From the NCBI RefSeq assembly GCF_040802235.1, contig NC_133163.1, positions 39,514,501 through 39,578,500 of the forward strand: a stretch of 64,000 nucleotides of DNA. The letters are read 5' to 3'. The translations under genes and the position numbers were made by a program. The notes beneath the pieces are model-generated. The model made no database searches, was not told where the DNA came from, and was given only the letters and a program-made list of their open reading frames with translations. Every line of letters starts with the position of its first letter. The first letter of the stretch is position 1. This document shows, in pieces, positions 16,901 to 50,318 of the stretch. The stretch is from Manis javanica (lineage: Eukaryota; Chordata; Mammalia; Pholidota; Manidae).

Positions 16901-19376
16901 AGGGTTTGTGGTTCCCTATAGGAAATTCTTCTGGCTATTGTATCCCCTCTTGGGTAGAGTGGGTAAGAAAAAGTCCAGAGCCTAATCTATAAATCCTTCT
17001 TGGTTCACAGGTCAGTCTATATTGTGAAGATTAATTTGATTTCAGACTGTTATTTATAATTCCAGCACTGGCCCTTTTGACTTAGCACACCAATTCATTA
17101 AAAGTTGAAATTGTATCTTTCATCCATTAAGAGAAGAGAGTCCAAACATGCCATATTTCTTAGCTGAGAAATAAAACTTCAAGTCTTGACCACGTTATTC
17201 ACCTTAACATTCTTTAGTTCTCTTGGAAGGAAGTTCTCAACAATCCTGGTATCCTGGCTGAAGTTTAGGTTTGAGACCTCCCCTATGCTCGTTTATGTTC
17301 CAGTCATAACTGGAAGTGGTATTTATTTGTCACTTCCTGTTCTAGACTTATTGTGGTATTTTGTGTGTCTGTGGATGGCTGTTAAGCTGAAGGCTAAGGG
17401 ATCTTTGAAGACTTTCTGTTTAGACATATTTTAATTGGTTTAACTTAAGACTGGACAAAAATTTTATCTACAAATAATAAATTTTACGTTATCTACAAAT
17501 AATTTATGGAAGAAAAATATAAAAATTTATAAATTTTTGGAAAATTATTGACACTATGATACTAATGGCTGTAAGTATACTGTATCTATTTGTGCTACCA
17601 GATCGATACATTTTTTTTTTTTGTAAGAAAAAAATCAGTTATTGGGCTTTAGAGAAATTATGGATTATTTGGATGTATGAAATACCATCTCAGACAAAAA
17701 GCATCCATGGCTCAGCTTAATGTCAGAAAAGGTCTTATGTTAGATCAGCTGTTTAGAGACAGTAAATAAAACCAGCAATGAATTTCTAGTGTCCATAGTT
17801 TTTTGTCATATGGGGAGTGAGAGATCACTGTAACTTAATTATTTTCTCAAAAATTTGATGTTTTTATCATCTCTTAAAACCTGTATCTTTCTTTTCCTTA
17901 TGTCCTTTTTCACACATTCTCATAATCATTCCAGGTAGATTGGATGCATGCAGTTGTCTATATATATGGAAATAAATGCTATCTTTATTGAGTGATTGAT
18001 TGATTTACTAACAGTGGGTAGTTAGTTAAGCTAGTGGGAGGAGCCATTAGAGTTCGTAATGAAGATGAATTAAAAGGGATAAGAAAGTATTTTCTCTCCT
18101 TTCCTATTAAGGATGTGCTTCTAATTAGCCAAAGATCTGAAAAAAGAAAAATGTAATGCTAGAAGGGATTAGATGATCGAGTGAACTTTTCTGTGCTTGC
18201 AGCTGCCTAGTTGAGCCAATTCTTTTACATATAGGAAGCAGACATGTCAGCACAGTGATTTCTGCTAATCTTCTGGCCCCTTTGCTTTCACCAGAAATGA
18301 ATCCAAATGTTTAGATATGCTGTGTTCCAATTATATTAGAAATTTTGCCTGGAATGAAATTTCAGAAAAAGTGAAATTTGTGGCCTTGTATGAACAAGCA
18401 ATGATAATAAAGGTAAGGTTTAAAACAATAAGCATCTTATGAGGTTTCAGACTCAATACTGTCTTTATTTATGATGAATGCAAGGGAAAGGTTGGTGGAA
18501 TGTACCTTTAGATCTCTCAGGAACATTTTTCTACCTTGAGAATTTGTCAGTAGTTAGAAAACCACCATTGAGAAAGGCCTCTCCCCTCCTGGTAGTATGA
18601 CTTAAAGTGGCTGTCTCAGAAAGAATATGCCCACAGCCACTAGCTAATTCATAGAATTGAGGTCACATTTATTTTAAAGAGTTGACTAGTTAAATATAAA
18701 GAAAACTCTCCTTTCTAACAATGAGTGGAGAATTGCGGTTAGAAACATTATTCATGAGCAGCCTACAAAATGGTTCTTGGGTCAAATATGTAGCATTAAC
18801 AGTGGGGGTTTGGCCATGGACTCTAGATGCAACCATATATGGGATAGCCTTATCTCCCTGCCGATCTCTCCTGATAAGATTGTGCTAATGGAACTGAAAA
18901 CTGTTCAGGTAGCTAAATGCCCTCAAGACAGACTGTCCCTGAGAAATGGGAAGCGTAATCACACAGAAAAGCATCAGAGTAACAACACATATTTTTTCAC
19001 AAAAATACAGACTGGTTTAATCGAGTTGCACATAATACATATTATCACTCATGTTTGGGGGGATAAATATTTTTATTACAAAAATTTTTACACAAGGATC
19101 TTTGTCTTTAAAATGTGAATCCAGAACTTTGTTAGGCATGGTTTTCATTAAGAAACCCAAAGCAAAAATGCTGCCAGAGCACCCCAGGAAGGTGTTAGCC
19201 ATAGTAAATATTCATATAGAATTGGAGGAAGATTTTTATGTAACTAGATTTAGTGAATTTATTGGGATTTCACTGTGTATTAAACTGGGAAAAACAAATC
19301 TAATATAAAAAGTGCTATCTTTTTTGAATAATTATAGTTGTATTGGTTAAAAAGTATAAGCATGTATATGAGTTAT
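13981..19376. other. AT-rich intergenic DNA, no gene seen
   Basis: About 5.4 kb of AT-rich sequence. It contains a (GA)n tract (14748-14769). I recognise no coding gene, RNA gene or confident transposon. Short open frames (up to about 113 codons) are lysine/phenylalanine-rich and look random. Confidence 0.5.
14748..14769. repeat. (GA)n microsatellite
   Basis: Eleven uninterrupted GA units. Confidence 0.95.
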
Positions 19377-19390
19377 GTTTACACTTTTTT
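19377..19390. repeat. Target-site duplication of L1 copy 1, left
   Basis: TGTTTACACTTTTT here and at 28280-28293 flank the L1. A 14-bp repeat is typical of L1 endonuclease-primed insertion, and the T-rich end fits priming on a TT/AAAA site. Confidence 0.85.
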
Positions 19391-19396
19391 TTTTGA

Positions 19397-19717
19397 GAGG
19401 GCATCTCTCATATTTATTGATCAAATGGTTGTTAACAACAATAAAATTCAGTAGAGGGGGGTCAATGCTCAATGTACAATCATTAATCCATCTCAAGCCT
19501 AACTCTCGTCAGTCTCCAATCTTCTGAAGCATAACGAACAAGTTCTTACATGGTGAACGAATTCTTACATAGTGAATAAATTCTTACATGGTGAACAGTG
19601 CAAGGGCATTCATCACAGAAACTTCCGGTTTTGATCACGCATTATGAACTATAAACAATCAGGTCAAATATGAATATTCATTTGATATTTATACTTGATT
19701 TATATGTTGATCCCACA
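19397..19717 (-). mobile_element. LTR U3-R segment forming the L1 3' end, copy 1
   Basis: Read on the minus strand, an LTR-like start TGTGGGATC (19717 downward) follows directly after a purine tract. An AATAAA (complement of 19415-19420) lies about 18 nt before the junction with the terminal A-run at 19397. This is the expected structure of U3 plus R ending at the retroviral cleavage site. No U5 is present, consistent with an RNA polyadenylated in R. The LTR family is not named; general layout resembles class II (betaretrovirus-like) elements. Confidence 0.6.
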
Positions 19718-19748
19718 TTTCTCCCTTTATTATTATTATTATTTTTAT
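19718..19748 (-). other. Polypurine tract and preceding (ATT/AAT)n, copy 1
   Basis: Minus-strand AAAGGGAGAAA abuts the LTR start; in retroviruses this primes plus-strand DNA. An (AAT)n microsatellite precedes it. In copy 2 the same tract is AAAGGAAGAAA. Confidence 0.5.
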
Positions 19749-20351
19749 TTTTAATAAAATGCTGAAGTGGTAGGTAGATGCAAGATAAAGGTAGAAAACA
19801 CAGTTTAGTGTTGTAGGAGAGCAATTGTAGATGATCAGGTGTGTGCCTGTAGACTATGTGTTAATCCAAGCTAGACAAGGGCAATAAACCATCCACGGAC
19901 GCAGAAGATTTCTCTCAAAGCAGGGGGGATGAGGTTCTGAGCCTCACCTCTGTTGATCCCCAATTTCTCACCTGATGGCCCCCCCTGCGAATGTGCCTGT
20001 CTTAGGTTGTTCCTCCCTTGAGGAATCTTACCCGTCTCTGGCTAACCAGTCATCTTCCGGGGCCATACAGGGAAATGTAAAGTTGGTAAGTGAGAGAGAA
20101 GCCATATTGTTTGAAAAGGTTAGCTTTTTACTTCTTTGCAGATTTATGCCCTGTGGCTTCTATGCCCAGCACTTGTCTCGAGGTATCTTTACCACCTGGA
20201 GGAATTATGATGCTCGGTAAATTCGATATGAGGCACGAATTCTATTTAAGGGTTGTAATTAGGAAGGAAGAAGAAAAGCTATAGAGGTAGCATATGGAAG
20301 AAAACATGGGAGGATTGATTATTCCTTTGACATATCTTCTTGTAGAGTACC

Positions 20352-20840
20352 TTAAGTATGTATAGGTTTTAAACTACTAACTAATTTGTACACACATATT
20401 GACATAATAGGAATACGGTAACATAAACAAAGCAAATCTGTAATTACCATCCATCTCCAGTGAAGCCAAGAAAACCATTTAGGCACCCTAGGCATTTGTG
20501 AAAATTTGTCTATGATATAATGGATATTGTCCAACTGTACTTGAACAGTCTGAGAGAAATCAGACAAATTAAAGCAGCCCATTTCTGGGATCTGTTCACC
20601 TCCCATATGTCCTTTTAACCGTAGATAGTCTATAGTCATAAGATTTTGGAGTGCTACACCTTGCACCCCTCCCAACTCCTGGTTGAGTTCCAACAGTACA
20701 GATCCGGTCAAATTCGTTGTCTCACTGTATGCACCTGCCAGCCTAGACATCTCCCTCCTCATTCCAATGGCAAGTCCAGGAAATGGTGGGGTGGACGCAG
20801 CCACGACCGCAGCATCGCCCGGATCCCTGTGGAGGCTTTT
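20352..20840 (-). pseudogene. Retroviral envelope transmembrane-subunit remnant, copy 1
   Basis: An open minus-strand frame of about 150 codons (stop at 20352-20354, first codon near 20804 is GTG, frame open a little further upstream) resembles a retroviral Env TM ectodomain. In order: a hydrophobic Ala/Val/Gly-rich start (fusion-peptide-like), a heptad region, an immunosuppressive-domain-like LQNLMTIDYLRL, a degenerate cysteine loop (only MGCFNLSD remains), a second helix, a Trp-rich membrane-proximal part (WFSWLHWRW) and a partial hydrophobic anchor. The surface subunit is missing and no signal peptide is present, so it is not an entry protein. The similarity is by pattern recognition, not database search. 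Confidence 0.55.
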
Positions 20841-20844
20841 TGAT

Positions 20845-21043
20845 GATCATCCCCCGGCACGAGTCCTCCAGAGAGTGCTGATGCCGGAAGCTCCTCCTCA
20901 TATCGTATCTTAGTTCATTTTCTGGGTATCCAAGCTAGGCCTTGATCTTCTGCATAGAAACAAACAGACCCTTTGCCCACACTTTGACATGCCCTCTATA
21001 CCACTATGCAGAACTCATTGGAGGTCAGCACACAGGGACTGCC
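20845..21043 (-). pseudogene. Retroviral integrase C-terminus-like remnant, copy 1
   Basis: The minus-strand translation of 20924-20977 reads GKGSVCFYAEDQGLAWIP, the pattern of the C-terminal domain end of retroviral integrases (glycine, VC/F, acidic-Gly, WIP). In-frame stops occur on both sides, so it is a relic. It is followed immediately by the env TM remnant, as in pol-env order but with the surface-subunit region deleted. Confidence 0.45.
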
Positions 21044-21205
21044 TTTTTTTTTTCTTTTTATTAAGAGAAAGGAATATTATCAAAAAAAGAGTACCTCCAT
21101 AGCTGATCATCTGACACCCTTTAAGAGATCAACATTAAGGATATTTAAAGCATGCGTTGATCTTTGATTTACCAATAGTTTTTTCCTATCAAGGAGTAAT
21201 CCCCC

Positions 21206-21236
21206 TTTTCTTTCGTTCTTTCTTTTTTTTTTTTTA
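21206..21236 (-). other. Internal A-tract at L1/retrovirus junction, copy 1
   Basis: On the minus strand an A-rich run directly follows the ordinary L1 3' end (compare 221-371). I read it as a fossil poly(A) tail marking where the L1 was joined to retroviral DNA. A second A-rich tract is at 21044-21062, separated by about 140 bp of unassigned sequence. Confidence 0.55.
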
Positions 21237-21576
21237 ATCTTTAATCTACACTTACATGAAGAGTACTATGTTTACTATGCTCTCCCCTATATCAGGTCCC
21301 CCCTAACAACCACATTACGGTTACTGTCCATCAGCTTAACAAAATGTTGTAGAATCCCTACTTGTCCTCTCTGTGTTGTGCAGCCCACCCTCCCCTTTCT
21401 CCCTCCCCCACCATGCATGCTAATCTTAATACCCCCTTCTTCTTCCCCCACCTTATCCCTCCCTGCCCAACCATCCTCCCCAGTTCCTTTCCCTTTGGTA
21501 CCTGTTAGTCCATTTTTGGGTTCTGTAATTCCACTGCTGTTTTGTTCCTTCAGTTTTTCCTTTGTTCCTATACTCC
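21237..21576 (-). other. Ordinary L1 3' UTR with G-rich polypurine tract, copy 1
   Basis: About 340 bp between the ORF2 stop and the A-tract. The minus strand at 21395-21500 is a purine/G-rich tract (runs of GGGGG, GGGAGGG), a conserved L1 3' UTR feature able to form G-quadruplexes. The last 120 bp match the truncated L1 at 221-371. Confidence 0.75.
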
Positions 21577-24500
21577 TCAGATGAGTGAAATCATTTGGTA
21601 TTTCTCTTTCTCCGCTTGGCTTATTTCACTGAGCATAATACTCTCCAGCTCCATCCATGTTGCTGCAAATGGTTGGATTTTTCCACTTCTTATGGCTGAG
21701 TAGTATTCCATTGTGTGTATGTACCACATCTTCTTTATCCATTCATCTAATGATGGACATTTAGGTTGCTTCCAATTCTTGGCTATTGTAAATAGTGCTG
21801 TGATAAACATAGGGGTGCATCTGTGTTTCTCAAACTTGATTGCTGCGTTCTTAGGGTAAATTCCTTGGAGTGGAATTCCTGGGTCAAATGGTAGGTCTGT
21901 TTTGAGCATTTTGATGAACCTCCAAACTGCTTTCCACAATGGTTGAACTAATTTACATTCCCACGAGCAGTGTAGGAGGGTTCCCCTTTCTCCACAGCCT
22001 CGCCAACATTTGTTGTTGTTTGTCTTTTGGATGGCAGCTATCCTTACTGGTGTGAGGTGATACCTCATTGTAGTTTTAATTTGCATTTCTCTGATAATTA
22101 GCGATGTGGAGCATCTTTTCATGTGTCTCTTGTCCATCTGTATTTCTTTTTTAGAGAACTGTCTGTTCAGTTCCTCTGCCCATTTTTTAATTGGGTTATT
22201 TGTTTTTTGTTTGTTGAGGCGTGTGAGCTCTTTATATATTCTGGACGTCAAGCCTTTATCAGATCTGTCATTTTCAAATATATTCTCCCATACTGTAGGG
22301 TTCCTTTTTGTTCTATTGATGGTGTCTTTCGCTGTACAGAAGCTTTTCAGCTTAATGTAGTCCCACTTGCTCATGTTTGCTGTTGTTTTCCTTGCCCGGG
22401 GAGATATGTTCAAGAAGAGGTCACTCATGTTCATGTCTAAGAGGTTTTTGCCTATGTTTTTTTCCAAGAGTTTAATGGTTTCATGACTTACATTTAGGTC
22501 TTTGATCCATTTTGAGTTTACCTTTGTATATGGGGTTAGACAATGGTCCAGTTTCATTCTCCTATACACGTAGCTGTCCAGTTTTGCCAACACCATCTGT
22601 TGAAGAGACTGTCATTTTGCCATTGTATGTCCTTGGCTCCTTTATCAAATATTAATTGACCATATTTGTTTGGGTTAATGTCTGGAGTCTCTAATCTGTT
22701 CCACTGGTCTGTGGCTCTGTTCTTGTGCCAGTACCAAATTGTCTTGATTACTATGGCTTTGTAGTAGAGCTTGAAGTTGGGGAGTGAGATCCCCCCTACT
22801 TTATTCTTCTTTTTCAGGATTGCTTTGGCTATTCGGAGTCTTTGGTGTTTCCATATGAATTTTTGAATTATTTGTTCCAATTCATTGAAGAATGTTGCTG
22901 GTAATTTGAGAGGGATTGCATCAAATCTGTATATTGCTTTGGGCAGGATGGCCATTTTAACGATATTAATTCTTCCTAGCCATGAGCATGGGATGAGTTT
23001 CCATTTATTAGTGTCCCCTTTAATTTCTCTTAAGAGTGACTTGTAGTTTTCAGAGTATAAGTCTTTCACTTCTTTGGTTAGGTTTATTCCTAGGTATTTT
23101 ATTCTTTTTGATGCAATGGTGAATGGAATTGTTTTCCTGATTTCTCTTTCTATTGGTTCATTGTTAGTGTATAGGAAAGCTACAGATTTCTGTGTGTTAA
23201 TTTTGTATCCTGCAACTTTGCTGTATTCCAATATCAGTTCTAGTAGTTTTGGAGTGGAGTCTTTAGGGTTTTTTATGTACAGTATCATATCATCTGCAAA
23301 TAGTGACAGTTTAACTTCTGCTTTACCAGTCTGGATTCCTTGTATTTCTTTGTTTTGTCTGATTGCCATGGCTAGGACCTCCAGTACTATGTTGAATAAC
23401 AGTGGGGAGAGTAGGCATCCCTGTCTTGTTCCCGATCTCAGAGGAAATGCTTTCAGCTTCTTGCTGTTCAGTATAATGCTGGCTGTGGGTTTATCATATA
23501 TGGCCTTTATTATGTTGAGGTACTTGCCCTCTATTCCCATTTTGCTGAGAGTTTTTATCATGAATGGATGTTGAATTTTGTCAAATGCTTTTTCATCATC
23601 TATGGAGATGATCATGTGGTTTTTGTCTTTCTTTTTGTTGATGTTGTGGATGATGTTGATGGATTTTCGAATGTTGTACCATCCTTGCATCCCTGGGATG
23701 AACCCCACTTGGTCATGGTGTATGATCCTCTTGATATACTGTTGAATTCTGTTTGCTAATATTTTATTGAGTATTTTTGCATCTACACTCATCAGGGATA
23801 TTGGTCTGTAGTTTTCTTTTTTGGTGGGGTCTTTGCCTGGTTTTGGTATTAGGGTGATGTTGGCTTCATAGAATGAATTTGGGAGTATTCTCTCTTCTTC
23901 TATTTTTTGGAACACTTTAAGGAGAATGGGTATTATGTCTTCTCTGTGTGTCTGATAAAATTCCGAGGTAAATTCGTCCGGCCCTGGGGTTTTGTTCTTG
24001 GGTAGTTTTTTGATTACCGTTTCAATTTCTTTGCTCGTAATTGGTTTGTTTAACTTTTGTGTTTCTTCCTTGGTCAGTCTTGGGAGGTTGTATTTTCTAG
24101 GAAGTTGTCCATTTCTTCTAGGTTTTCCAGCTTGTTGGCATATAGGTTTTCATAGTAGTCTTTAATAATTCTTTGTATTTCTGTGGAGTGTGTCGTGATT
24201 TTTCCATTCTCATTTCTGATTATGTTGAAAATGTGTTGATTCTCTTTTTCTCTTAATAAGTTTGGCTAGAGGCTTATCTATTTTGTTTATTCTCTCAAAG
24301 AACCAGCTCTTGGTTTCGTTGATTTTTGCTATTGTTTTATTCTTCTCAATTTTGTTTATTTCTTCTCTGATCTTTATTATGTCCCTCCTTCTGCTGACTT
24401 TAGGCCTCATTTGGTCTTCTTTTTCCAGTTTCGATAATTGTGATGTTAGACTATTCATTTGGGATTGTTCTTCCTTCTTCAAGTGTGCCTGGATTGCTAT

Positions 24501-24630
24501 ATACTTTCCTCTTAAGACTGCTTTCGCTGCGTCCCACAGAAGTTGGGGCTTAGTGTTGTTGTTGTCATTTGTTTCTATATATTCCTTGATCTCTATTTTG
24601 ATTTGTTCATTGATCCATTGATTATTTAGT
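21577..24630 (-). pseudogene. L1 ORF2 reverse transcriptase and C-terminal part, copy 1
   Basis: Encodes the linker, reverse transcriptase and Cys-rich C-terminus of L1 ORF2p, which copies L1 RNA into DNA at the nicked target. RT motifs present: [23 protein letters not shown], and the catalytic FADDM in [11 protein letters not shown]. The terminal CX3CX7HX4C knuckle ([18 protein letters not shown]) is intact. Frame breaks: one extra base relative to copy 2 near 24230, a one-base loss in a T-run near 24096, and a 2-bp insertion near 22564 (CCTATACACG against CCTACACG in copy 2). The longest open pieces are 22554-23915 and 21577-22596. Non-functional as a polyprotein. Confidence 0.9.
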
Positions 24631-24639
24631 AGAATGTTG

Positions 24640-25413
24640 TTAAGCCTCCATGTGTTTGTGAGCCTTTTTGTGAGAATTTATTTCTAGTTTTATACCTTTG
24701 TGGTCTGAAAAATTGGTTGGTAGAATTTCAATATTTTGGAATTTACTGAGGCTCTTTTTGTGAGCTGGTATGTGGTCTATTCTGGAGAATGTTCCATGTG
24801 CACTTGAGAAGAATGTATATCCTGTTGCTTTTGGATGTAGAGTTCTATAGATGTCTATTAGGTCCATCTGTTCTAGTGTGTTGTTCAGTGCCTGTGTGTC
24901 CTTACTTATTTTCTGCCCGGTGGATCTATCCTTTGGGGTGAGTGGTGTGTTGAAGTCTCCTAAAATGAATGCATTGCAGTCTATTTCCCTCTTTAGTTCT
25001 GTTAGTATTTGCTTCACATATGCTGGTGCTCCTGTGTTGGGTGTATATTTATTTAGAATGGTTATATCCTCTTGTTGGACTGAGCCCTTTATCATTATGT
25101 AGTATCCTTCTTTATCTCTTGTTACTTTCTTTGTTTTGAAGTCTATTTTGTCTGATATTAGTACTGCAACCCCTGCTTTCTTCTCACTGTTATTTGCCTG
25201 AAATATGTTTTTCAATCCCTTGACTTTTAGTCTATGCTTGTCTTTGGGTTTAAGGTGAGTTTCTTGTAAGCAGCATATAGATGGGTCTTGCTTTTTTATC
25301 CATTGTATTACTCTGTGTCTTTTGATTGGTGCATTAAGTCCATTTACATTTAGGGTGACTATTGAGAGATATGTACTTATTGCCATTGCAGGCTTTAGAT
25401 TCGTGGTTACCAA
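24640..25413 (-). pseudogene. L1 ORF2 endonuclease domain, copy 1
   Basis: 257 codons from the ORF2 start to a stop at 24640. It is an APE-type endonuclease that nicks target DNA. Family active-site signatures are visible: LNVNGLNAP (Asn), LQETHLK (Glu), LNKYTPNTGAP (Tyr), LGDFNTPL (Asp/Asn), RIDHI (Asp) and FSDHKGI (Asp-His). The frame then shifts: the downstream linker is in another frame. Copy 2 ends at the same codon, so the break is inherited. The product would be an isolated endonuclease domain with a short foreign tail. Confidence 0.85.
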
Positions 25414-25580
25414 AGGTTCAAGGTTAGCTTCTTTAGTATCTTACTGCCTAACTTAGCTCGCTTATTGAGCTGTTATATACACTGTCTGGAGATTCTTTTC
25501 TTCTCTCCCTTCTTATTCCTCCTCCTCCCTTCTTCATATGTTGTGTGTTTTGTTCTGTGCTCTTTTTGGGGTGCTCCCAT
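25414..25580 (-). other. L1 inter-ORF spacer, copy 1
   Basis: 167-nt noncoding spacer between ORF1 stop (complement of 25581-25583) and the ORF2 ATG, purine-rich on the sense strand. Confidence 0.7.
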
Positions 25581-26470
25581 CTAGAGCAGTTCCTGTAGGA
25601 TGCCCTGTAGAGGTGGTTTGTGGGAAGCAAAATCCCTCAGCTTTTGCTTGTCTGGGAATTGTTTAATCCCACCATCATATTTAAATGATAGTCGTGCTGG
25701 ATACAGTATCCTTGGTTCAAGGCCCTTCTGTTTCATTGCATTAAGTATATCATGCCATTCTCTTCTGGCCTGTAGGGTTTCTGTTGAGAAGTCTGATGTT
25801 AGCCTGATGGGTTTTCCTTTATAGGTGACTTTTTTCTCCTAGCTGCCTTTAAAACTCTTTCCTTGTCCCTGATTCTTGCCATTTTAATTACTATGTGTCT
25901 TGGTGTTGTCCTCCTTGGATCCTTTCTGTTGGGGGTTCTGTGTAATTCCATGGTCTGTTCGATTATTTCCTCCCCCAGTTTGGGGAAGTTTTCAGCAATT
26001 ATTTCTTCAAAGAGACTTTGTATCCCTTTTCCTCTTTCTTCTTCTTCTGGTATCCCTATAATACGAATATTATTCCTTTTGGTTTGGTCACATAGTTCTC
26101 TTAGTGTTGTTTCATTCGTGGAGATCCTTTTATATTTCTCTATGTCAGCTTCTGTACGTTCCTGCTGTCTGGCTTCTATTCCTTCAATGGCCTCTTGCAT
26201 CTTATCCATTCTGCTTATAAATCCTTCCAGGGATTGTTTCACTTCTGTAATCTCCTTCCTGACATCTGTGATCTCCCTCTGGACTTCATCCCATTGCTCT
26301 TGCATTTTTCTCTGCATGTCATCCCGTTGGTCTTGCATTTTTCTCTGCATCTCTGTCAGCATGTTCATGATTTTTATTTTGAATTCTTTTTCAGGAGGAC
26401 TGGTTAGGTCTGTCTCCTTCTCAGGTGTCGTCTCTGTGATCTTTGTCTGCCTGTAGTTTTGCCTTTTCAT
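25581..26470 (-). pseudogene. L1 ORF1 (RNA-binding chaperone), frameshifted, copy 1
   Basis: ORF1p coats L1 RNA as a trimer. From the ATG at 26470 there are 223 open codons to a stop at 25799: a charged N-terminus, a coiled coil (about residues 35-100) with an 11-residue tandem duplication (41-51 and 52-62), and an RRM (FEEIIAENFP, RHIVIKM). The frame then breaks at a purine run near 25830; the C-terminal domain continues in another frame to a stop at 25581. Total length 890 nt is one base off a multiple of three. Copy 2 has the same break. Ordinary L1 ORF1p would be about 296 residues. Confidence 0.85.
26285..26350 (-). repeat. 33-bp tandem duplication in ORF1 coiled coil, copy 1
   Basis: Codons 41-51 (MQRKMQDQRDD) and 52-62 (MQRKMQEQWDE) are tandem copies. 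An 11-residue (hendecad) unit preserves coiled-coil phase. Also present in copy 2. Confidence 0.8.
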
Positions 26471-26929
26471 GGTGATAAAGATAGTTTGCAGACGTGGTAC
26501 GAGTGACCGCTGGAAGCTTCCTTTCTTGTTGGTTTGTGGCCTTCCTCTCCTGGGAGAATAGCGAACTCTAGTGGCTTATGCTTGTCAGCTGTGTGCAGAC
26601 AGGGCTTCTGCTACCTGCCCGTTTGCTATGGAGTTTATCTCCGCTGTTGCTGTGGGCATGGCCTGGCTGGGGCCGCTCCTCCAAAGTGGTGGAGCCCTGT
26701 TGGCGGGGGAGCGGCCGGGAGGCTATTTTTCTCTGTAAGGGGCCTCTGTGCTCCCTGTTGCCCAGGGGGTTAGAGTGGCCTGAGATCCCCAGATTCCCTG
26801 CCTCTGGTCTAAGTGTCCTGTCCTGCCCCTTTAAGACTTCCCAAAAGGACTCTTCAAACCAAAACAACAACAGAAAAATGAGAGAGGGAACAGAAAAAAA
26901 AAAAAAAAAAAAGGAAAAAACATGCGATT

Positions 26930-28015
26930 TTTTTTGTCCTCAGGCGCCGGTCCCAGGCACCCGCTCACTGGTCCTGCTGCCTTGCCTCCCTAGCACCAGG
27001 GTCCCTGTCCCTTCAAGGCTTCCAAAAAGCACTCGTGCCTGGTCCCGCAGGGAAAAACGCACGATATTCTTTGTGTTCAGGCGCCGGTCCCAGGCATGCT
27101 CTCACTGGTCCTGCTGCTCTGCCTCCCTAGCACCGGGGTCCCTTCCCTTTAAGGCTTCCAAAAAGCACTTGCCAAAGAGAGAGAGAAAAAAAAAGAGGAA
27201 AAACGCACGATTTCCTCCGTCCTCAGGCACCGGTCTCAGGCACCCGCCCACCGGTCCCGCAGGGAAAAATGCGCAGTATGCTTTATCCTCAGGCGCCAGT
27301 CCCAGGCACCCGCTCACCGGTCCTGCTGCTCTGCCTCCCTAGCACCAGGGTCCCTGTCCCTTTAAGGCTTCCAAAAAGCACTCGCCAAAAAGAGAAAAAA
27401 AAGGGGAAAAACGCGCGATTTCCTCCGTCTTCAGGCGCCAGTCTCATGCAGCTGCCCTCTGGTCCCGCAGGGAAAAACACGGGATAGTCTTTGTCCTCAG
27501 GCGCCAGTCCCAGGCACCCGCTCACCAGTCCCGCCGCCCTGCCTCCCTAGCACCGGGGTCCCTCTCCCTTTAAGGCTTCCAAAAAGCACTCGCCAAAAAG
27601 AGAAAAAAAAAAGGGGAAAAGCGCGCGTTTTCCTCTGTCCTCAGGCGCTGGTCTCAGGCACCCACCCACTGGTCCCGTAGGGAAAAACATGCGGTAATCT
27701 TTGTCCTCAGGCGCTTGTCCCAGGCACCCCCTCACTGGTCCCGCCGCCCTGCCTCCCTAGCAATGGGGTCCCTGTCCCTTTAAGGTTTCCAAAAAGCACT
27801 CGCCAAAAAGAGAAAAAAAAAAAGGGAAAAATGCGCGATTTCCTCCGTCCTCAGGCGCCGGTCTCAGGCACCCGCCCACCAGTCCCGTAGGGAAAAATGC
27901 ACGATCTTTCTCCTCAGGCGCCGGTGCCAGGCACCGCTCACTGGTCCCGCCGCCCTGCCTCCCTAGCAACGGGGTCCCTGTCCCTTTAAGGCTTCCAAAA
28001 AGCACTCGCCAAAAA
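26930..28015 (-). repeat. L1 5' UTR tandem monomers (about six units), copy 1
   Basis: The marker GCCTCCCTAG recurs at 26985, 27121, 27332, 27541, 27751 and 27957, so the unit is about 210 bp (one short, about 137). Each unit holds CTCAGGCGCC, a CACCCGC block, TCCCTTTAAGGCTTCCAAAA and an A-rich AGAGAAAAAAAA. In rodent L1s such monomers are the promoter; the same role is inferred here. Confidence 0.85.
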
Positions 28016-28257
28016 AAACCCCAAAAAACCACTCTGGTTTCTTTCCACCCGCCGGGAGCCGGGGGTAGGGGCGCTCGGGTCCCGCCGGTCCGGGGCTTGT
28101 ATCTTACCCCCTTTGCAAGGTGCTGGGTTCTTGCATGTGTGGATGTGGTCTGGATGTTGTCCTGTGTCCTCTGGTCTCTATTTTAGGAAGAGTTTTGTTT
28201 GTTATATTTTCATAGCTCTATGTGTTTTTGGGAGGAGATTTCCACTGCTCTACTCAT

Positions 28258-28279
28258 GCCGCCATCTTGGCTCCGCCCC
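28258..28279 (-). promoter_or_regulatory. YY1-type site at L1 5' end, copy 1
   Basis: Minus strand CCAAGATGGCGGC at the very start of the element matches the YY1 core (AAGATGGCGGC) known to position transcription start in human L1. Confidence 0.7.
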
Positions 28280-42556: not shown

Positions 42557-42569
42557 ATTTATTTTTTTT

Positions 42570-42872
42570 GAGAGGGCATCTCTCATATTTATTGATCAAA
42601 TGGTTGTTAACAACAATAAAATTCAGTATAGGGGGGTCAATGCTCAATGTACAATCATTAATCCATCTCGAGCCTAATTCTCGTCAGTCTCCAATCTTCT
42701 GAAGCATAACGAACAAGTTCTTACATGGTGAACGAATTCTTACATAGTGAATAAATTCTTACATGGTGAACAGAAACATTCGGTTTTGATCACGCATTAT
42801 GAACTATAAACAATCAGGTCAAATATGAATATTCGTTTGATTTTTATACTTGATTTATATGTGGATCCCACA
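42570..42872 (-). mobile_element. LTR U3-R segment forming the L1 3' end, copy 2
   Basis: Minus-strand start TGTGGGATC at 42872 after a purine tract (42873-42883); AATAAA as complement of 42588-42593, about 18 nt before the terminal A-run. Same as copy 1 apart from small indels (a stretch of roughly 20 bp present near 19600 of copy 1 is missing here). Confidence 0.6.
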
Positions 42873-42883
42873 TTTCTTCCTTT

Positions 42884-42910
42884 ATTATTATTATTATTAT
42901 TATTATTTTT
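42884..42910. repeat. (ATT)n microsatellite before polypurine tract, copy 2
   Basis: About eight ATT units, longer than in copy 1 (19727-19748), showing replication slippage between copies. Confidence 0.85.
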
Positions 42911-43508
42911 AATAAAATGCTGAAGTGGTAGGTAGATGCAAGATGAAGGTAGAAAACATAGTTTAGTGCTGTAAGAGAGCAAATGTAGATGATCAGGTGT
43001 GTGCCTATGGACTAAGTATTAATCCAAGCTAGACAAGGGCAGCAAAACATCCACGGATGCAGAAGATTTCTCTCAAAGCAGGGAGGATGAGGTTCTGAGC
43101 CTCACCTCTGTTGATCCCCAATTTCTCACCTGATGGCCCCCCTGCGACTGTGCCTGTCTTAGGTTGTTCCTCCCTTGAGGAATCTTACCCGTCTCTGGCT
43201 AACCAGTCATCTTCCGGGGCCATACAGGGAAATGTAAAGTTGGTAAGTGGGAGAGAAGCCATATTGTTTGAAAAGGTGAACTTTTTACTTCTTTGCAGAT
43301 TTATGCCCTGTGGCTTCTATGCCCAGCACTTGTCTCGAGGTATCTTTACCACCTGGAGGAATTATGATGCTCGGTAAATTCGATATGAGGCACGAATTCT
43401 ATTTAAGGGTTGTAATTAGGAAGGAAGAAGAAAAGCTATAGAGGTAGCATATGGAAGAAAACATGGGAGGATTGATTATTTCTTTGACATATCTTCTTGT
43501 AGAGTACC

Positions 43509-43997
43509 TTAAGTATGTATAGGTTTTAAACTACTAACTAATTTGCACACACATATTAACATAATAGGAATACGGTGACATAAACACAGCAAATCTATAA
43601 TTACCATCCATCTCCAGTGAAGCCAAGAAAACCATTTAGGCACCCTAGGCATTTGTGAAAATTTGTCTATGATATGATGGATATTGTCCTACTGTACTTG
43701 AACAGTCTGAGAGAAATCAGACAAATTAAAGCAGCCCATTTCTGGGATCTGTTCACATCACATATGTTTTTTTAACCGTAGATAGTCAATAGTCATAAGA
43801 TTTTGGAGTGCTACACCTTGCACCCCTCCCAACTCCTGGTTGAGTTCCAACAGTACAGATCCGGTCAAATTCGTTGTCTCACTGTATGCACATGCCAGCC
43901 TAGACATCTCCCTCCTCATTCCAATGGCAAGTCCAGGAAACGATGGGGTGGACGCAGCCACGACCGCAGCATCGCCCGGATCCCTGTGGAGGCTTTT
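43509..43997 (-). pseudogene. Retroviral envelope transmembrane-subunit remnant, copy 2
   Basis: Same env TM relic as copy 1. The first 67 codons (43758-43961) differ at 3 residues, then a stop directly after KKHM cuts the frame before the cysteine-loop region; the rest is still recognisable in the DNA. The surface subunit is again absent. Its presence at the same place in an independent insertion shows that it travels with the L1. Confidence 0.55.
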
Positions 43998-43999
43998 TG

Positions 44000-44200
44000 A
44001 TGATCGTCCCCCGGCACGAGTCCTCCAGAGAGTGCTGATGCCAGAAGCTCCTCCTCATATCGTATCTTAGTTCATTTTCTGGGTATCCAAGCTAGGCCTT
44101 GATCTTCTGCATAGAAACAAACAGACCCTTTGCCCACACTTTGACATGCCCTCTATACCACTGTGCAGAACTCATTGGAGGTCAGCACACAGGGACTGCC
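44000..44200 (-). pseudogene. Retroviral integrase C-terminus-like remnant, copy 2
   Basis: 44081-44134 encodes the same 18-residue GKGSVCFYAEDQGLAWIP-type pattern as copy 1, again flanked by stops. Confidence 0.45.
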
Positions 44201-44359
44201 TTTTTTTTTTCTTTTTATTAAGAGAAAGGAATATTATCAGAAAAGAGTACCTCCATAGTTGATCATCTGACACCCTTTACGTGATCAACATTAAGGATAT
44301 TTAAAGCATGTGTTGATCTTTGATTTACCAATAGTTTTATCATATCAAGGAGTAATCCC

Positions 44360-44395
44360 CCTTTTCTTTCTTTCTTCCCTTTTTTTAAAAATCTT
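44360..44395 (-). other. Internal A-rich junction tract, copy 2
   Basis: A-rich on the sense strand (TTTAAAAA / AAAGGGAAGAAAGAAAG), more diverged than copy 1, at the same L1/retroviral junction. The second A-tract is at 44201-44220. Confidence 0.5.
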
Positions 44396-44730
44396 TAATC
44401 TACACTTACATGAAGAGTACTATGTTTACTATGCTCTCCCCTATATCAGGTCCCCCCTAACAACCACATTACGGTTACTGTCCATCAGCTTAACAAAATG
44501 TTGTAGAATCCCTACTTGTCCTCTCTGTGTTGTGTAGCCCACCCTCCCCTTTCTCCCTCCCCCCCCATGCATGCTAATCTTAATACCCCCTTCTTCTTCC
44601 CCCACCTTATCCCTCCCTGCCCACCCATCCTCCCCAGTTCCTTTCCCTTTGGTACCTGTTAGTCCATTTTTGGGTTCTGTAATTCCGCTGCTGTTTTGTT
44701 CCTTCAGTTTTTCCTTTGTTCTTATACTCC
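44396..44730 (-). other. Ordinary L1 3' UTR, copy 2
   Basis: About 335 bp after the ORF2 stop, with the same G-rich polypurine tract (about 44540-44640, GGGGGGGAGGGAG on the sense strand). Confidence 0.7.
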
Positions 44731-47265
44731 TCAGATGAGTGAAATCATTTGGTATTTCTCTTTCTCCGCTTGGCTTATTTCACTGAGCATAATACTCTCC
44801 AGCTCCATCCATGTTGCTGCAAATGGTTGGATTTTTCCACTTCTTATGGCTGAGTAGTATTCCATTGTGTGTATGTACCACATCTTCTTTATCCATTCAT
44901 CTACCGATGGACATTTAGGTTGCTTCCAATTCTTGGCTATTGTAAACAGTGCTGTGATAAACATAGGGGTGCATCTGTGTTTCTCAAACTTGATTGCTGC
45001 GTTCTTAGGGTAAATTCCTAGGAGTGGAATTCCTGGGTTAAATGGTAGGTCTGTTTTGAGCATTTTGATGAACCTCCAAACTGCTTTCCACAATGGTTGA
45101 ACTAATTTACATTCCCACGAGCAGTGTAGGAGGGTTCCCCTTTCTCCACAGCCTCGCCAACATTTGTTGTTGTTTGTCTTTTGGTTGGCAGCTATCCTTA
45201 CTGGTGTGAGGTGATACCTCATTGTAGTTTTAATTTGCATTTCTCTGATAATTAGCGATGTGGAGCATCTTTTCATGTGTCTCTTGTCCATCTGTATTTC
45301 TTTTTTAGAGAACTGTGTGTTCAGTTCCTCTGCCCATTTTTTAATTGGGTTATTTGTTTTTTGTTTGTTGAGGCGTGTGAGCTCTTTATATATTCTGGAC
45401 ATCAAGCCTTTATCAGATCTGTCATTTTCAAATATATTCTCCCATACTGTAGGGTTCCTTTTTGTTCTATTGATGGTGTCTTTCGCTGTACAGAAGCTTT
45501 TCAGCTTAATGTAGTCCCACTTGCTCATGTTTGCTGTTGTTTTCCTTGCCCGGGGAGATATGTTGAAGAGGAGGTCACTCATGTTTATGTCTAAGAGGTT
45601 TTTGCCTATGTTTTTTTCCAAGAGTTTAATGGTTTCATGACTTACATTTAGGTCTTTGATCCATTTTGAGTTTACCTTTGTATATGGGGTTAGACAATGG
45701 TCCAGTTTCATTCTCCTACACGTAGCTGTCCAGTTTTGCCAACACCATCTGTTGAAGAGACTGTCATTTTGCCATTGTATGTCCTTGGCTCCTTTATCAA
45801 ATATTAATTGACCATATTTGTTTGGGTTAATGTCTGGAGTCTCTAATCTGTTCCACTGGTCTGTGGCTCTGTTCTTGTGCCAGTACCAAATTGTCTTGAT
45901 TACTATGGCTTTGTAGTAGAGCTTGAAGTTGGGGAGTGAGATCCCCCCTACTTTATTCTTCTTTTTCAGGACTGCTTTGGCTATTCGGAGTCTTTGGTGT
46001 TTCCATATGAATTTTTGAATTATTTGTTCCAATTCATTGAAGAATGTTGTTGGTAATTTGAGAGGGATTGCATCAAATCTGTATATTGCTTTGGGCAGGA
46101 TGGCCATTTTGATGATATTAATTCTTCCTAGCCTTGAGCATGGGATGAGTTTCCATTTATTAGTGTCCCCTTTAATTTCTCTTAAGAGTGACTTGTAGTT
46201 TTCAGAGTATAAGTCTTTCACTTCTTTGGTTAGGTTTATTCCTAGGTATTTTATTCTTTTTGATGCAATGGTGAATGGAATTGTTTTCCTGATTTCTCTT
46301 TCTATTGGTTCATTGTTAGTGTATAGGAAAGCTACAGATTTCTGTGTGTTAATTTTGTATCCTGCAACTTTGCTGTATTCTGATATCAGTTCTAGTAGTT
46401 TTGGAGTGGAGTCTTTAGGGTTTTTTATGTACAGTATCATATCATCTGCAAATAGTGACAGTTTAACTTCTTCTTTACCAATCTGGATTCCTTGTATTTC
46501 TTTGTTTTGTCTGATTGCCGTGGCTAGGACCTCCAGTACTATGTTGAATAACAGTGGGGAGAGTAGGCATCCCCGTCTGGTTCCCGATCTCAGAGGAAAT
46601 GCTTTCAGCTTCTTGCTGTTCAGTATAATGCTGGCTGTGGGTTTATCATATATGGCCTTTACTATGTTGAGGTACTTGCCCTCTATTCCCATTTTGCTGA
46701 GAGTTTTTATCATGAATGGATGTTGAATTTTGTCAAATGCTTTTTCATCATCTATGGAGATGATCATGTGGTTTTTGTCTTTCTTTTTGTTGATGTTGTG
46801 GATGATGTTGATGGATTTTCGAATGTTGTACCATCCTTGCATCCCTGGGATGAACCCCACTTGGTCATGGTATATGATCCTTTTGATATACTGTTGAATT
46901 CTGTTTGCTAATATTTTATTGAGTATTTTTGCATCTACACTCATCAGGGATATTGGTCTGTAGTTTTCTTTTTTGGTGGGGTCTTTGCCTGGTTTTGGTA
47001 TTAGGGTGATGTTGGCTTCATAGAATGAGTTTGGAAGTATTCCCTCTTCTTCTATTTTTTGGAACACTTTAAGGAGAATGGGTATTATGTCTTCTCTGTG
47101 TGTCTGATAAAATTCCGAGGTAAATCCGTCCGGCCCCGGGGTTTTGTTCTTGGGTAGTTTTTTGATTACCGTTTCAATTTCTTTGCTCGTAATTGGTTTG
47201 TTTAACTTTTGTGTTTCTTCCTTGGTCAGTCTTGGGAGGTTGTATTTTTCTAGGAAGTTGTCCAT
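44731..47265 (-). CDS. L1 ORF2 reverse transcriptase/C-terminal domain, open frame, copy 2
   Basis: 844 uninterrupted codons cover the RT and C-terminal domain of L1 ORF2p. N-terminal fingers ([14 protein letters not shown] at about 41-54), [19 protein letters not shown] (170-179), the primer-grip-side [14 protein letters not shown] (228-241) and the catalytic FADDM at 272-276 are intact. The C-terminus has the CX3CX7HX4C knuckle and the usual end near EKEKYQMI. The frame is part of a 1270-residue-class ORF2; the first Met is internal, and upstream in the same frame a single stop near 47388 separates it from the linker. Enzymatic potential is plausible for the domain but the endonuclease is in a different frame. 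Same-strand neighbour pieces: 47389-47787 and 47792-48565. Confidence 0.8.
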
Positions 47266-47388
47266 TTCTTCTAGGTTTTCCAGCTTGTTGACATATAGGT
47301 TTTCATAGTAGTCTTTAATAATTCTTTGTATTTCTGTGGAGTGTGTTGTGATTTTTCCATTCTCATTTCTGATTATGTTGATTTGTGT

Positions 47389-47787
47389 TTATTCTTTTTT
47401 TCTCTTAATAAGTTTGGCTAGGGGCTTATCTATTTTGTTTATTCTCTCAAAGAACCAGCTCTTGGTTTCGTTGATTTTTGCTATTGTTTTATTCTTCTCA
47501 ATTTTGTTTATTTCTTCTCTGATCTTTATTATGTCCCTCCTTCTGCTGACTTTAGGCCTCATTTGGTCTTCTTTTTCCAGTTTCGATAATTGTGATGTTA
47601 GACTGTTCATTTGGGATTGTTCTTCCTTCTTCAAGTGTGCCTGGATTGCTATATACTTTCCTCTTAAGACTGCTTTCGCTGCGTCCCACAGAAGTTGGGG
47701 CTTAGTGTTGTTGTTGTCATTTGTTTCTATATATTCCTTGATCTCTATTTTGATTTGTTCATTGATCCATTGATTATTTAGTAGCAT
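47389..47787 (-). pseudogene. L1 ORF2 linker segment, copy 2
   Basis: 132 codons between endonuclease and RT (LLNNQWINEQIKIEIKEYIE, AAKAVLRGKYIAIQAHLKKE). It is in the RT frame but ends KLIKRKKE-stop: a serine-type codon has become TAA compared with copy 1 (KRKRES). Not in frame with the endonuclease. Confidence 0.8.
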
Positions 47788-47791
47788 GTTG

Positions 47792-48565
47792 TTAAGCCTC
47801 CATGTGTTTGTGAGCCTTTTTGTGAGAATTTATTTCTAGTTTTATACCTTTGTGGTCTGAAAAATTGGTTGGTAGAATTTCAATATTTTGGAATTTACTG
47901 AGGCTCTTTTTGTGAGCTGGTATGTGGTCTATTCTGGAGAATGTTCCATGTGCACTTGAGAAGAATGTATATCCTGTTGCTTTTGGATGTAGAGTTCTAT
48001 AGATGTCTATTAGGTCCATCTGTTCTAGTGTGTTGTTCAGTGCCTGTGTGTCCTTACTTATTTTCTGCCCGGTGGATCTATCCTTTGGGGTGAGTGGTGT
48101 GTTGAAGTCTCCTAAAATGAATGCATTGCAGTCTATTTCCCTCTTTAGTTCTGTTAGTATTTGCTTCACATATGCTGGTGCTCCTGTGTTGGGTGTATAT
48201 TTATTTAGAATGGTTATATCCTCTTGTTGGACTGAGCCCTTTATCATTATGTAGTATCCTTCTTTATCTCTTGTTACTTTCTTTGTTTTGAAGTCTATTT
48301 TGTCTGATATTAGTACTGCAACCCTTGCTTTCTTCTCACTGTTGTTTGCCTGAAATATGTTTTTCAATCCCTTGACTTTTAGTCTATGCTTGTCTTTGGG
48401 TTTAAGGTGAGTTTCTTGTAAGCAGCATATAGATGGGTCTTGCTTTTTTATCCATTGTATTACTCTGTGTCTTTTGATTGGTGCATTAAGTCCATTTGCA
48501 TTTAGGGTGACTATTGAGAGATATGTACTTATTGCCATTGCAGGCTTTAGATTCGTGGTTACCAA
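47792..48565 (-). pseudogene. L1 ORF2 endonuclease domain, copy 2
   Basis: 257 codons, the same length and the same terminal frame break as copy 1. Active-site signatures are retained (LQETHLK, LGDFNTPL, RIDHI, FSDHKGI). Two substitutions against copy 1: LNANGL for LNVNGL and KKARVAVL for KKAGVAVL. Confidence 0.85.
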
Positions 48566-48732
48566 AGGTTCAAGGTTAGCTTCTTTAGTATCTTACTGCC
48601 TTACTTAGCTCGCTTATTGAGCTGTTATATACACTGTCTGGAGATTCTTTTCTTCTCTCCCTTCTTATTCCTCCTCCTCCCTTCTTCATATGTTGTGTGT
48701 TTTGTTCTGTGCTCTTTTTGGGGTGCTCCCAT

Positions 48733-49622
48733 CTAGAGCAGTTCCTGTAGGATGCCCTGTAGAGGTGGTTTGTGGGAAGCAAAATCCCTCAGCTTTTGCT
48801 TGTCTGGGAATTGTTTAATCCCACCATCATATTTAAATGATAGTCGTGCTGGATACAGTATCCTTGGTTCAAGGCCCTTCTGTTTCATTGCATTAAGTAT
48901 ATCATGCCATTCTCTTCTGGCCTGTAGGGTTTCTGTTGAGAAGTCTGATGTTAGCCTGATGGGTTTTCCTTTATAGGTGACTTTTTTCTCCTAGCTGCCT
49001 TTAAAACTCTTTCCTTGTCCCTGATTCTTGCCGTTTTAATTACTATGTGTCTTGGTGTTGTCCTCCTTGGATCCTTTCTGTTGGGGGTTCTGTGTAATTC
49101 CATGGTCTGTTCGATTATTTCCTCCCCCAGTTTGGGGAAGTTTTCAGCAATTATTTCTTCAAAGAGGCTTTGTATCCCTTTTCCTCTTTCTTCTTCTTCT
49201 GGTACCCCTATAATACAAATATTATTCCTTTTGGCTTGGTCACATAGTTCTCTTAGTGTTGTTTCATTCCTGGAGATCCTTTTATCTCTCTCTATGTCAG
49301 CTTCTATACGTTCCTGTTCTCAGGCTTCTATTCCTTCAATGGCCTCTTGCATCTTATCCATTCTGCTTATAAATCCGTCCAGGGATTGTTTCACTTCTGT
49401 AATCTCCTTCCTGACATCTGTGATCTCCCTCCGGACTTCATCCCATTGCTCTTGCATTTTTCTCTGCATCTCACCCCGTTGGTCTTGCATTTTTCTCTGC
49501 ATCTCTGTCAGCATGTTCATGATTTTTATTTTGAATTCTTTTTCAGGAGGACTGGTTAGGTCTGTCTCCTTCTCAGGTGTTGTCTCTGTGATCTTTGTCT
49601 GCCTGTAGTTTTGCCTTTTCAT
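48733..49622 (-). pseudogene. L1 ORF1, nonsense plus shared frameshift, copy 2
   Basis: ATG at 49622 opens 100 codons ending IEGIEA followed by TGA at 49320-49322, where copy 1 has an Arg codon (AGA to TGA fits one change). The rest of ORF1 remains recognisable to the stop at 48733, with the same frame break as copy 1 near 48985. The 11-residue coiled-coil duplication (codons 41-62, 49437-49502) is present. Non-functional. Confidence 0.85.
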
Positions 49623-49849
49623 GGTGATAGAGATAGTTTGCAGAGCTGGTACAAGTGACCGCTGAAGAGCTTCCCTTCTTGTTGGTTTGTGGCCTTCCTC
49701 TCCTGGGAGAATAGCAACCTCTAGTGGCTTATGCTTGTCAGCTGTGCGCAGACAGGGCTTCTGCTACCTGCCCATTTTCTATGGCGTTTATCTCTGCTGT
49801 TGCTGTGGGCGTGGCCTGGCTGGGGCTGCCCCTCCAAAGTGGTGGAGCC

Positions 49850-50070
49850 CTAAGGCTTTCAAAAAGCACTCGCCAAAAAGAGGAAAAAAAAAAAGGGGAA
49901 TACGCGTGATTTCCTCCGTCCTCAGACGCCAGTCTCAGGCACCCGCCCACCAGTCCCGTAGGGAAAAACACCCGATAATCTTTGTCCTCAGGCGCCGGTC
50001 CCATGCACCCGCTCACCGGTCCCACCGCCCTGCCTCCCTAGTAACGGGCACTCGCCAAAAAAAAAACTGC
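49850..50070 (-). repeat. L1 5' UTR monomer (about one unit), copy 2
   Basis: A single GCCTCCCTAG marker (about 50032) with one CTTTCAAAAAGCACTCGCCA block at 49855. Against six units in copy 1, most monomers are missing. Confidence 0.8.
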
Positions 50071-50295
50071 TCCGGTTTCTTTCCACCCACCAGGAGCCGG
50101 GGGGAGGGGCAGTCGGGTTCCGCCGGGCCGGGGCTTGTATCTTACCCCTTTCGCAAGGCGCTGGGTTCTTGCAGGTGTGGATGTGGTCTGGATGTTGTCC
50201 TGTGTCCTCTGGTCTCTATTTTAGGAAGAGTTTTCTTTGTTATATTTTCATAGCTCTATGTGTTTTTGGGAGGAGATTTCCACTGCTCTACTCAT

Positions 50296-50318
50296 GCCAC
50301 CATCCTGGCTCCGCCTCC
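50296..50318 (-). promoter_or_regulatory. Degraded YY1-type site at L1 5' end, copy 2
   Basis: Minus strand CCAGGATGGTGGC: two changes against CCAAGATGGCGGC of copy 1, both inside the YY1 core region. Confidence 0.6.

Follow-up and report, generated by a model that had tools for sequence, protein, structure and literature searches.

An L1 family of Manis javanica with a 3' tail corresponding to the end of a class II provirus

Two tailed L1 elements in the window

We analysed a stretch of 64,000 nucleotides of Manis javanica DNA, referred to here as the window. Two L1 elements lie on its minus strand, and each continues beyond the L1 3' UTR and an A-tract into a block of about 1.8 kb (Table 1). 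A full-length L1 with such a block, repeated in a second copy, had been described in the original prediction, and both were found at the positions given there. Over 7.3 kb of L1 and tail, copies 1 and 2 share 97.7% identity (19387-26698 versus 42562-49851). Positions in the tail (t) are numbered from window base 21420 downwards.

Table 1 Positions of the tailed L1 copies and their parts in the window.
Feature	Position	Strand	Remark
Copy 1, full-length L1 with retroviral tail	19387..28279	-	Interrupted coding frames
Copy 1, L1 5' UTR, tandem monomers of ~210 bp	26894..28015	-	
Copy 1, L1 3' UTR	21237..21580 (start approximate)	-	Terminus ...GATTAAAGATT
Copy 1, L1 A-tract with (GAAA)n	21210..21236	-	
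Copy 1, integrase C-terminal relic (t212-584)	20837..21209	-	74% identical to provirus L035
Copy 1, Env relic: SU mostly missing, then ASLV-like TM	20336..20824	-	
Copy 1, CTE-like block	19981..20085	-	Best-conserved part of the tail against the proviruses
Copy 1, CTE half-site core	19996..20036	-	GACGGGTAA ... AACCTAAGACAGG flanking a hairpin
Copy 1, polypurine tract	19718..19734	-	Terminus AAAGGGAGAAA
Copy 1, LTR U3 and R, without U5	19395..19717	-	TGTGGGATC...CCCTCTC
Copy 1, AATAAA	19413..19418	-	18 nt ahead of the poly(A)
Copy 2, L1 with tail	42562..50317	-	TSD differs from copy 1
Copy 2, tail	42562..44395	-	CTE core 43153-43193

The retroviral part of copy 1 spans approximately 21209 to 19395, its last retroviral base, and the AATAAA stands ahead of the final poly(A) at the predicted distance. 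Copy 1 carries the TSD AAAAAGTGTAAACA, found at approximately 19376-19389 and again upstream of 28279. Copy 2 carries AAATGTTGATAATT, which is unlike that of copy 1, as had been proposed. The tail has no coding capacity: in neither window copy are the integrase frames intact, and the 136-aa TM frame that is open in copy 1 is disrupted in copy 2.

Two short tandem repeats were also observed. A 19-bp unit is present 3.3 times in the U3 of the tail (19536-19597); the L037 and L031 LTRs described below lack the extra units, and similar repeats occur in the LTR L038. A 33-bp unit lies in the ORF1 region (26277-26350), where the alignments of several copies break or overlap, which suggests that ORF1 length varies among copies at this unit.

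Homology of the tail to class II proviruses

LTRs with U5 were sought in the genome (2.56 Gb in 63 contigs) by two patterns. The R end not followed by A gave 1,222 matches with at most three mismatches (backwards control, 0). U5 was present in all six places inspected from this search, and primer-binding-site-like sequence follows two of the six LTRs. The sequence (TG)GCGCCTGAACAGGGACC behind two LTRs is presumably a Lys-type PBS. The R end together with the U5 start gave 252 matches with at most two mismatches (backwards control, 0). Three places from this second search were inspected; two match the tail in the LTR only, and the third is provirus L037. L037 is collinear with the tail from t595 to R at 79% identity, and it continues into U5 at the very point, the R/U5 boundary, at which the tail passes into its terminal poly(A). 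The second search also gave a group of 13 same-strand LTR matches at G000:C16:45442189-46257998, often at a spacing of about 45 kb. This array is probably a large tandem duplication containing the LTR of the tail.

A second relative, L031, is a 3' LTR behind a polypurine tract (PPT), and the 3 kb upstream of it (L035) contain pol, integrase and env pieces. The tail aligns with L031/L035 in three collinear blocks, comprising integrase (74% over 374 nt), TM (69%) and the stretch from the CTE block to R (63%). Approximately 0.9 kb of SU is missing from the tail relative to L035. The PPT and LTR start of the tail (19734-19717) align with their counterparts in two proviruses from this genome, which agrees with the PPT and LTR-like start read from the window at the outset.

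We then compared the coding relics with known proteins. The TM relic matched chains 5h9c and 4jpr (E = 2.1e-5), the latter labelled as ASLV fusion TM, and Pfam and NCBIfam searches of the tail TM gave no Env match. The predicted Env TM relic is thus upheld by the structure chains and not by the family profiles. A 142-aa open piece of L035 matched the integrase chains 7usf (1.4e-5) and 3jca (1.4e-4), which we take to be MMTV integrase, and RSV integrase 1c0m (0.0092); its match to Pfam IN_DBD_C (0.0055) was below Pfam's cut-off. The short integrase fragments of the tail itself had no Pfam match, so the predicted integrase relic stands through its identity to L035. An unrelated spacer after the A-tract was considered and rejected, as the stretch there is integrase. 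Because this stretch directly adjoins the A-tract, the tail contains no other spacer. The retroviral identity proposed earlier was thereby retained and extended to the sequence immediately behind the A-tract.

Integrase, env TM, PPT and LTR, the parts of a class II ERV 3' end, were all found in the tail, and U5 and PBS were present in the proviral LTRs only. Homology thus confirms the 1.8 kb beyond the L1 3' UTR as corresponding to a class II provirus end, with the integrase C-terminus, an SU-deleted env with ASLV-like TM, PPT, U3 and R. A class II pangolin ERV lying between alpha- and betaretroviruses, ERV-Alpha-Mpen of Manis pentadactyla, is described in PMC12584738; its PBS is given there as of the Pro/Phe kind, in distinction from the (TG)GCGCCTGAACAGGGACC of the two LTRs here. 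The proposed search for a parental provirus yielded collinear relatives with U5 (L037) and with pol (L035). The true parent was not seen, since the closest sampled provirus is only 79% identical, and for the same reason the captured provirus was probably old already.

Unity, copy number and age of the tailed family

A genome search with the tail gave 7,100 first-look candidates and 40 scored places (a 41st row was a 36-nt piece). The tail is covered over at least 1,800 of its 1,846 nt in 37 of the 40, at 95-100% identity. L1 sequence lies directly upstream in all 40, namely the window copy, 20 loci and 19 of 19 further places. The 20 loci and both window copies were read out at length. Nineteen of these 22 extend from the 5' UTR through the tail; the other three comprise two splice-deleted copies and one truncated at its 5' end. 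The L1/tail junction is at an identical position in all 22 aligned copies. TSDs of at least 10 nt bracket L1 and tail together in 14 of the 22, counted without a shuffle control and including one A/T-rich TSD; in the remaining eight, a simple search gave a shorter TSD or none.

These results indicate that the chimera moved as one unit, as had been predicted. The tail does end in a poly(A) of its own, and it is similar to SINE-R (PMC12593883), as expected of a separate SINE-R-like retroposon inserted into L1 copies. The common junction, the L1 upstream in every scored place and the TSDs around L1 plus tail make such an insertion extremely improbable, and the tail as an independent nested repeat was rejected on the same observations. 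Neither of the outcomes that would have spoken against the original prediction arose: similarity to Env, integrase and LTR is present, and no tail among the copies read was nested by its own TSD.

Because the 40 places had been selected by their tails, a second sample of L1 ends was chosen regardless of the tail. Every fifth of 100 exact 3' UTR matches listed (C1-C4) was taken, giving 20, two of which were already known to be tailed. The tail was present after 18 of the 18 L1 ends fetched, and after 20 of 20 including the two known ones, a result that applies to exact 3' UTR matches. In one of the 18, L077, the tail is broken off at approximately 100 nt.

The elements have the parts of an L1, including ORF1 and ORF2, a 5' UTR, TSDs and poly(A). 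The ORFs were identified by position and L1 sequence, and long frames of ORF1 and ORF2 size are both open in one of the 22 copies. The 5' UTR consists of 210-bp monomers behind a 255-bp leader (window 26894-28015; homologous region in L009-L028), and each of the 22 copies gave between 0 and 6 long monomer hits. Two copies, L020 and L022, have a longer (GAAA)n between L1 and tail, with approximately 270 extra bases in L022. The two splice-deleted copies, L010 and L014, lack the stretch from GGGG/GTAAGAT in the 5' UTR to ...CCCAG/GAG or ...CCAAG/GAA (window equivalents, 28108 to 26550 and 21864 on the minus strand) and retain the tail. They are retrotransposed spliced L1 RNAs, comparable to the SpIREs of human L1.

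The proposed genome-wide search with the tail and the L1 end was carried out with at most three mismatches. It gave 11,788 tail starts and 9,829 L1 3' ends, with 0 in each backwards control. The L1-end pattern was taken from the tailed family, so L1 families with another 3' UTR are invisible to this count. With L077 left out, the 17 remaining unselected copies differed on average by 1.8% from the per-column majority and by 3.4% in pairwise comparison over 396 sites. Mammalian substitution rates are 1.4-2.2e-9. The mean copy age is thus about 8-13 My, on a rate that is not pangolin-calibrated and from exact 3' UTR matches, which are biased towards young copies. The tailed elements are a recent L1 lineage with roughly ten thousand recognisable ends. 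Three inverted pairs of tail starts with a constant spacing of exactly 4,464 bases were also observed (G000:C1:1823149/1827613, 4500776/4505240 and 23476342/23480806); they represent either a duplicated segment or a dispersed composite.

Origin of the chimera and its CTE-like block

The L1 3' UTR terminus contains ATTAAA and no AATAAA, and the chimera stops 18 nt beyond the AATAAA of R. At the site of the join, L035 reads TTATTTGTTAAAACAAAAAGGGGGATT, the bottom strand of which is GTTTT/AACAA. We take this to be a canonical L1 endonuclease site, and for this reason we prefer an insertion into integrase followed by read-through. In the likely course of events, a pangolin ancestor would have carried an old, SU-deleted class II provirus, and a full-length L1 would have landed in its integrase gene in the sense orientation. 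Transcripts of this L1 would have run past the weak L1 end (ATTAAA only) as far as the 3' LTR and been cleaved at the AATAAA of its R region. The resulting chimeric RNA, retrotransposed by its own ORF proteins, would then have become a prolific source gene, and its descendants would consist of L1 plus 1.8 kb of integrase, TM, CTE, PPT, U3 and R. The SU-deleted host provirus had probably already decayed.

An equal anatomy is expected from template switching, in which reverse transcriptase would start at the poly(A) of an R-terminated ERV mRNA, reach integrase and then jump to an L1 mRNA at its poly(A), with the fused product becoming the source gene. This process would also place an A-tract at the junction, surround the entire element with TSDs and leave the ERV part 5'-truncated, and the join does fall in an A-rich ERV stretch. 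The TTTT/AA site at the join fits an L1 insertion instead, and a fresh ERV mRNA is less likely because the source provirus was probably old, judging from its distance to L037 and the broken integrase frames. Neither point is decisive, and we consider template switching unlikely. A search for the founder locus by one exact pattern gave nine candidates, none of them convincingly in a provirus; in three, the provirus piece was matched weakly over a short stretch (E = 0.003, 0.008 and 0.06). The founder may have disappeared or mutated, or may not fit this pattern. The origin proposed at the outset, read-through of an L1 into a downstream provirus, therefore agrees with the high-copy family and the poly(A) at R/U5 and is the reading we prefer over template switching, and no convincing founder was among the nine candidates.

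The tail further contains a CTE-like half-site, which the original prediction did not include. Identity between tail and proviruses in 60-nt windows peaks at t1375, with 95% to L037 and 93% to L031/L035, and the preceding window has 92% and 88%, respectively. The peak is shallow against L037, where other windows reach 92%, and against L031/L035 the next best window elsewhere has 82%. This best-conserved block carries the NXF1-binding motif AAGACA and both arms of a retroviral CTE half-site. It includes GACGGGTAAGATTCCTCAAGGGAGGAACAACCTAAGACAGG (window 20036-19996), for which there were two matches, compared with 0 in 100 shuffles. Passages of PMC4330393 give SRV-1 half-CTE primers containing AACCTAAGACAGG and, as the reverse complement, GACGGGTAA, which are the arms of the tail, and report that one Tap-p15 is bound per symmetric CTE unit with AAGACA. 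The tail shares these arms, AAGACA and the position between env and PPT with the type D retrovirus CTE (MPMV/SRV-1). The type D element has two symmetric NXF1-binding loops, whereas the tail has a single CTE-like half-site with a short apical hairpin; a second half-site was absent from the tail.

In folding predictions, the arms of the tail form a half-site closed by the short hairpin. When short fragments of L037 and L031 (C11 and C3 elements) were folded, the pairing around the same hairpin was different, and the folding z-score was -2.5 for the tail and -1.0 for L031. An Rfam search gave seven matches up to E = 10, all below gathering scores, and no retroviral export family was among them. 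The genome contains 17,403 exact occurrences of the 34-nt core (backwards control, 0), a count that includes proviral copies and 5'-truncated tails. We regard the block as a putative NXF1 export element.

Constraint on the block was evaluated from variation among copies. At non-CpG positions in the 22 copies, the least variable 105-nt window of 1,696 begins at t1332, and the predefined 105-nt block (t1336) ranks 67th. With CpG counted, the core (0.0104) was not below its neighbours (0.0097-0.0170), and a by-eye count gave 13 of 41 printed copies with an altered CpG in the GACGGG arm. In 19 held-out copies, non-CpG variants were fewer in the core (7/1026) and in the whole block (23/1861) than outside the block (135/7206; p = 0.002 and 0.034, respectively). 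Private non-CpG variants in 41 copies showed no clear reduction (core 9/2214, p = 0.15; block 24/4017; outside 97/15835). The inherited ones numbered 2/2214 in the core, 10/4017 in the block and 123/15835 outside, with cells that are not independent. Counted by variant sites, the differences were not significant (core 1/54, p = 0.12; block 5/98, p = 0.34; outside 27/388). A reduction of inherited but not private variants is as expected if source genes, rather than dead copies, are constrained.

Whether the tail contributed to the spread of the lineage is a separate matter from the read-through origin, which is compatible with a passenger tail. On balance we lean towards a passenger, the spread being due to the L1 coding part or promoter and the CTE-like block being without effect. 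Turnover is normal in mammalian L1 and lineages often replace one another, so that a passenger tail could spread without benefit. The presence of a half-site only, the CpG-inclusive counts and the site-level test also favour it, and ORFeus-Hs does not need the native L1 export element (PMC3045867). The same source cites a report (Lindtner 2002) that human L1 itself possesses an NXF1-binding export element; when this element was restored, ORFeus-Hs retrotransposition did not increase, with the authors' caveat that the constructs bore introns. A gamma-CTE in one to three copies is reported in PMC4174252 to have little effect. On the other side, the block has the highest identity between the tail and both proviruses, and the non-CpG deficit of the core recurs in held-out copies, mainly through inherited variants. 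With less certainty than its origin, the tail may have aided the lineage, via the LTR poly(A) signal or via a CTE half-site exporting unspliced L1 RNA by NXF1. A reading in which the LINE gained both signals as its 3' UTR and NXF1-mediated export of unspliced full-length RNA drove the pangolin expansion is, taken as a whole, less likely than not.

The kinds of components are already known. SVA elements are mobilised by L1 enzymes. Their SINE-R, from the env 3' end and 3' LTR of HERV-K10, is likewise a class II ERV env-to-LTR piece in an A-tailed retroposon (PMC12593883), so the parallel drawn in the original prediction holds. SVA differs in being non-autonomous and composite (hexamer, Alu-like, VNTR), whereas the pangolin piece forms the 3' terminus of L1s of an autonomous lineage; unlike SINE-R, it includes integrase and derives from an ERV with ASLV-like TM. 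The CCCTCT hexamer, Alu-like part, VNTR and HERV-K10 SINE-R of noncoding SVA do not describe these elements, which are complete L1s with the tail of another ERV. L1 3' transduction usually carries the private flank of one source. It shares with the present case the bypass of an internal poly(A) signal for a downstream one, with the flank carried along (PMC12593883), and here too TSDs enclose L1 plus downstream sequence and the poly(A) follows the downstream signal. Unlike the usual transduction, the 1.8-kb provirus piece has become the 3' terminus of a whole family, for which approximately ten thousand ends match. In the SERV-K/MER11 transport element, a CTE was likewise gained by taking the env-LTR region of another ERV; there the recipient was a retrovirus and the process recombination, whereas the pangolin recipient is a LINE (PMC11379458). 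No published account of such an L1-provirus-end family was found among the matches listed in a literature search of titles and abstract openings. What is new is an autonomous L1 lineage bearing a provirus-end tail at about ten thousand recognisable ends.

A provirus end now serves as the 3' UTR of an autonomous L1 family in one mammal. The family offers a natural experiment on the roles of the L1 3' UTR, including poly(A) site strength and nuclear export, and its thousands of junction-tagged insertions are available for pangolin phylogeny and population studies. It is also a candidate case of a LINE acquiring the RNA-handling signals of a retrovirus.
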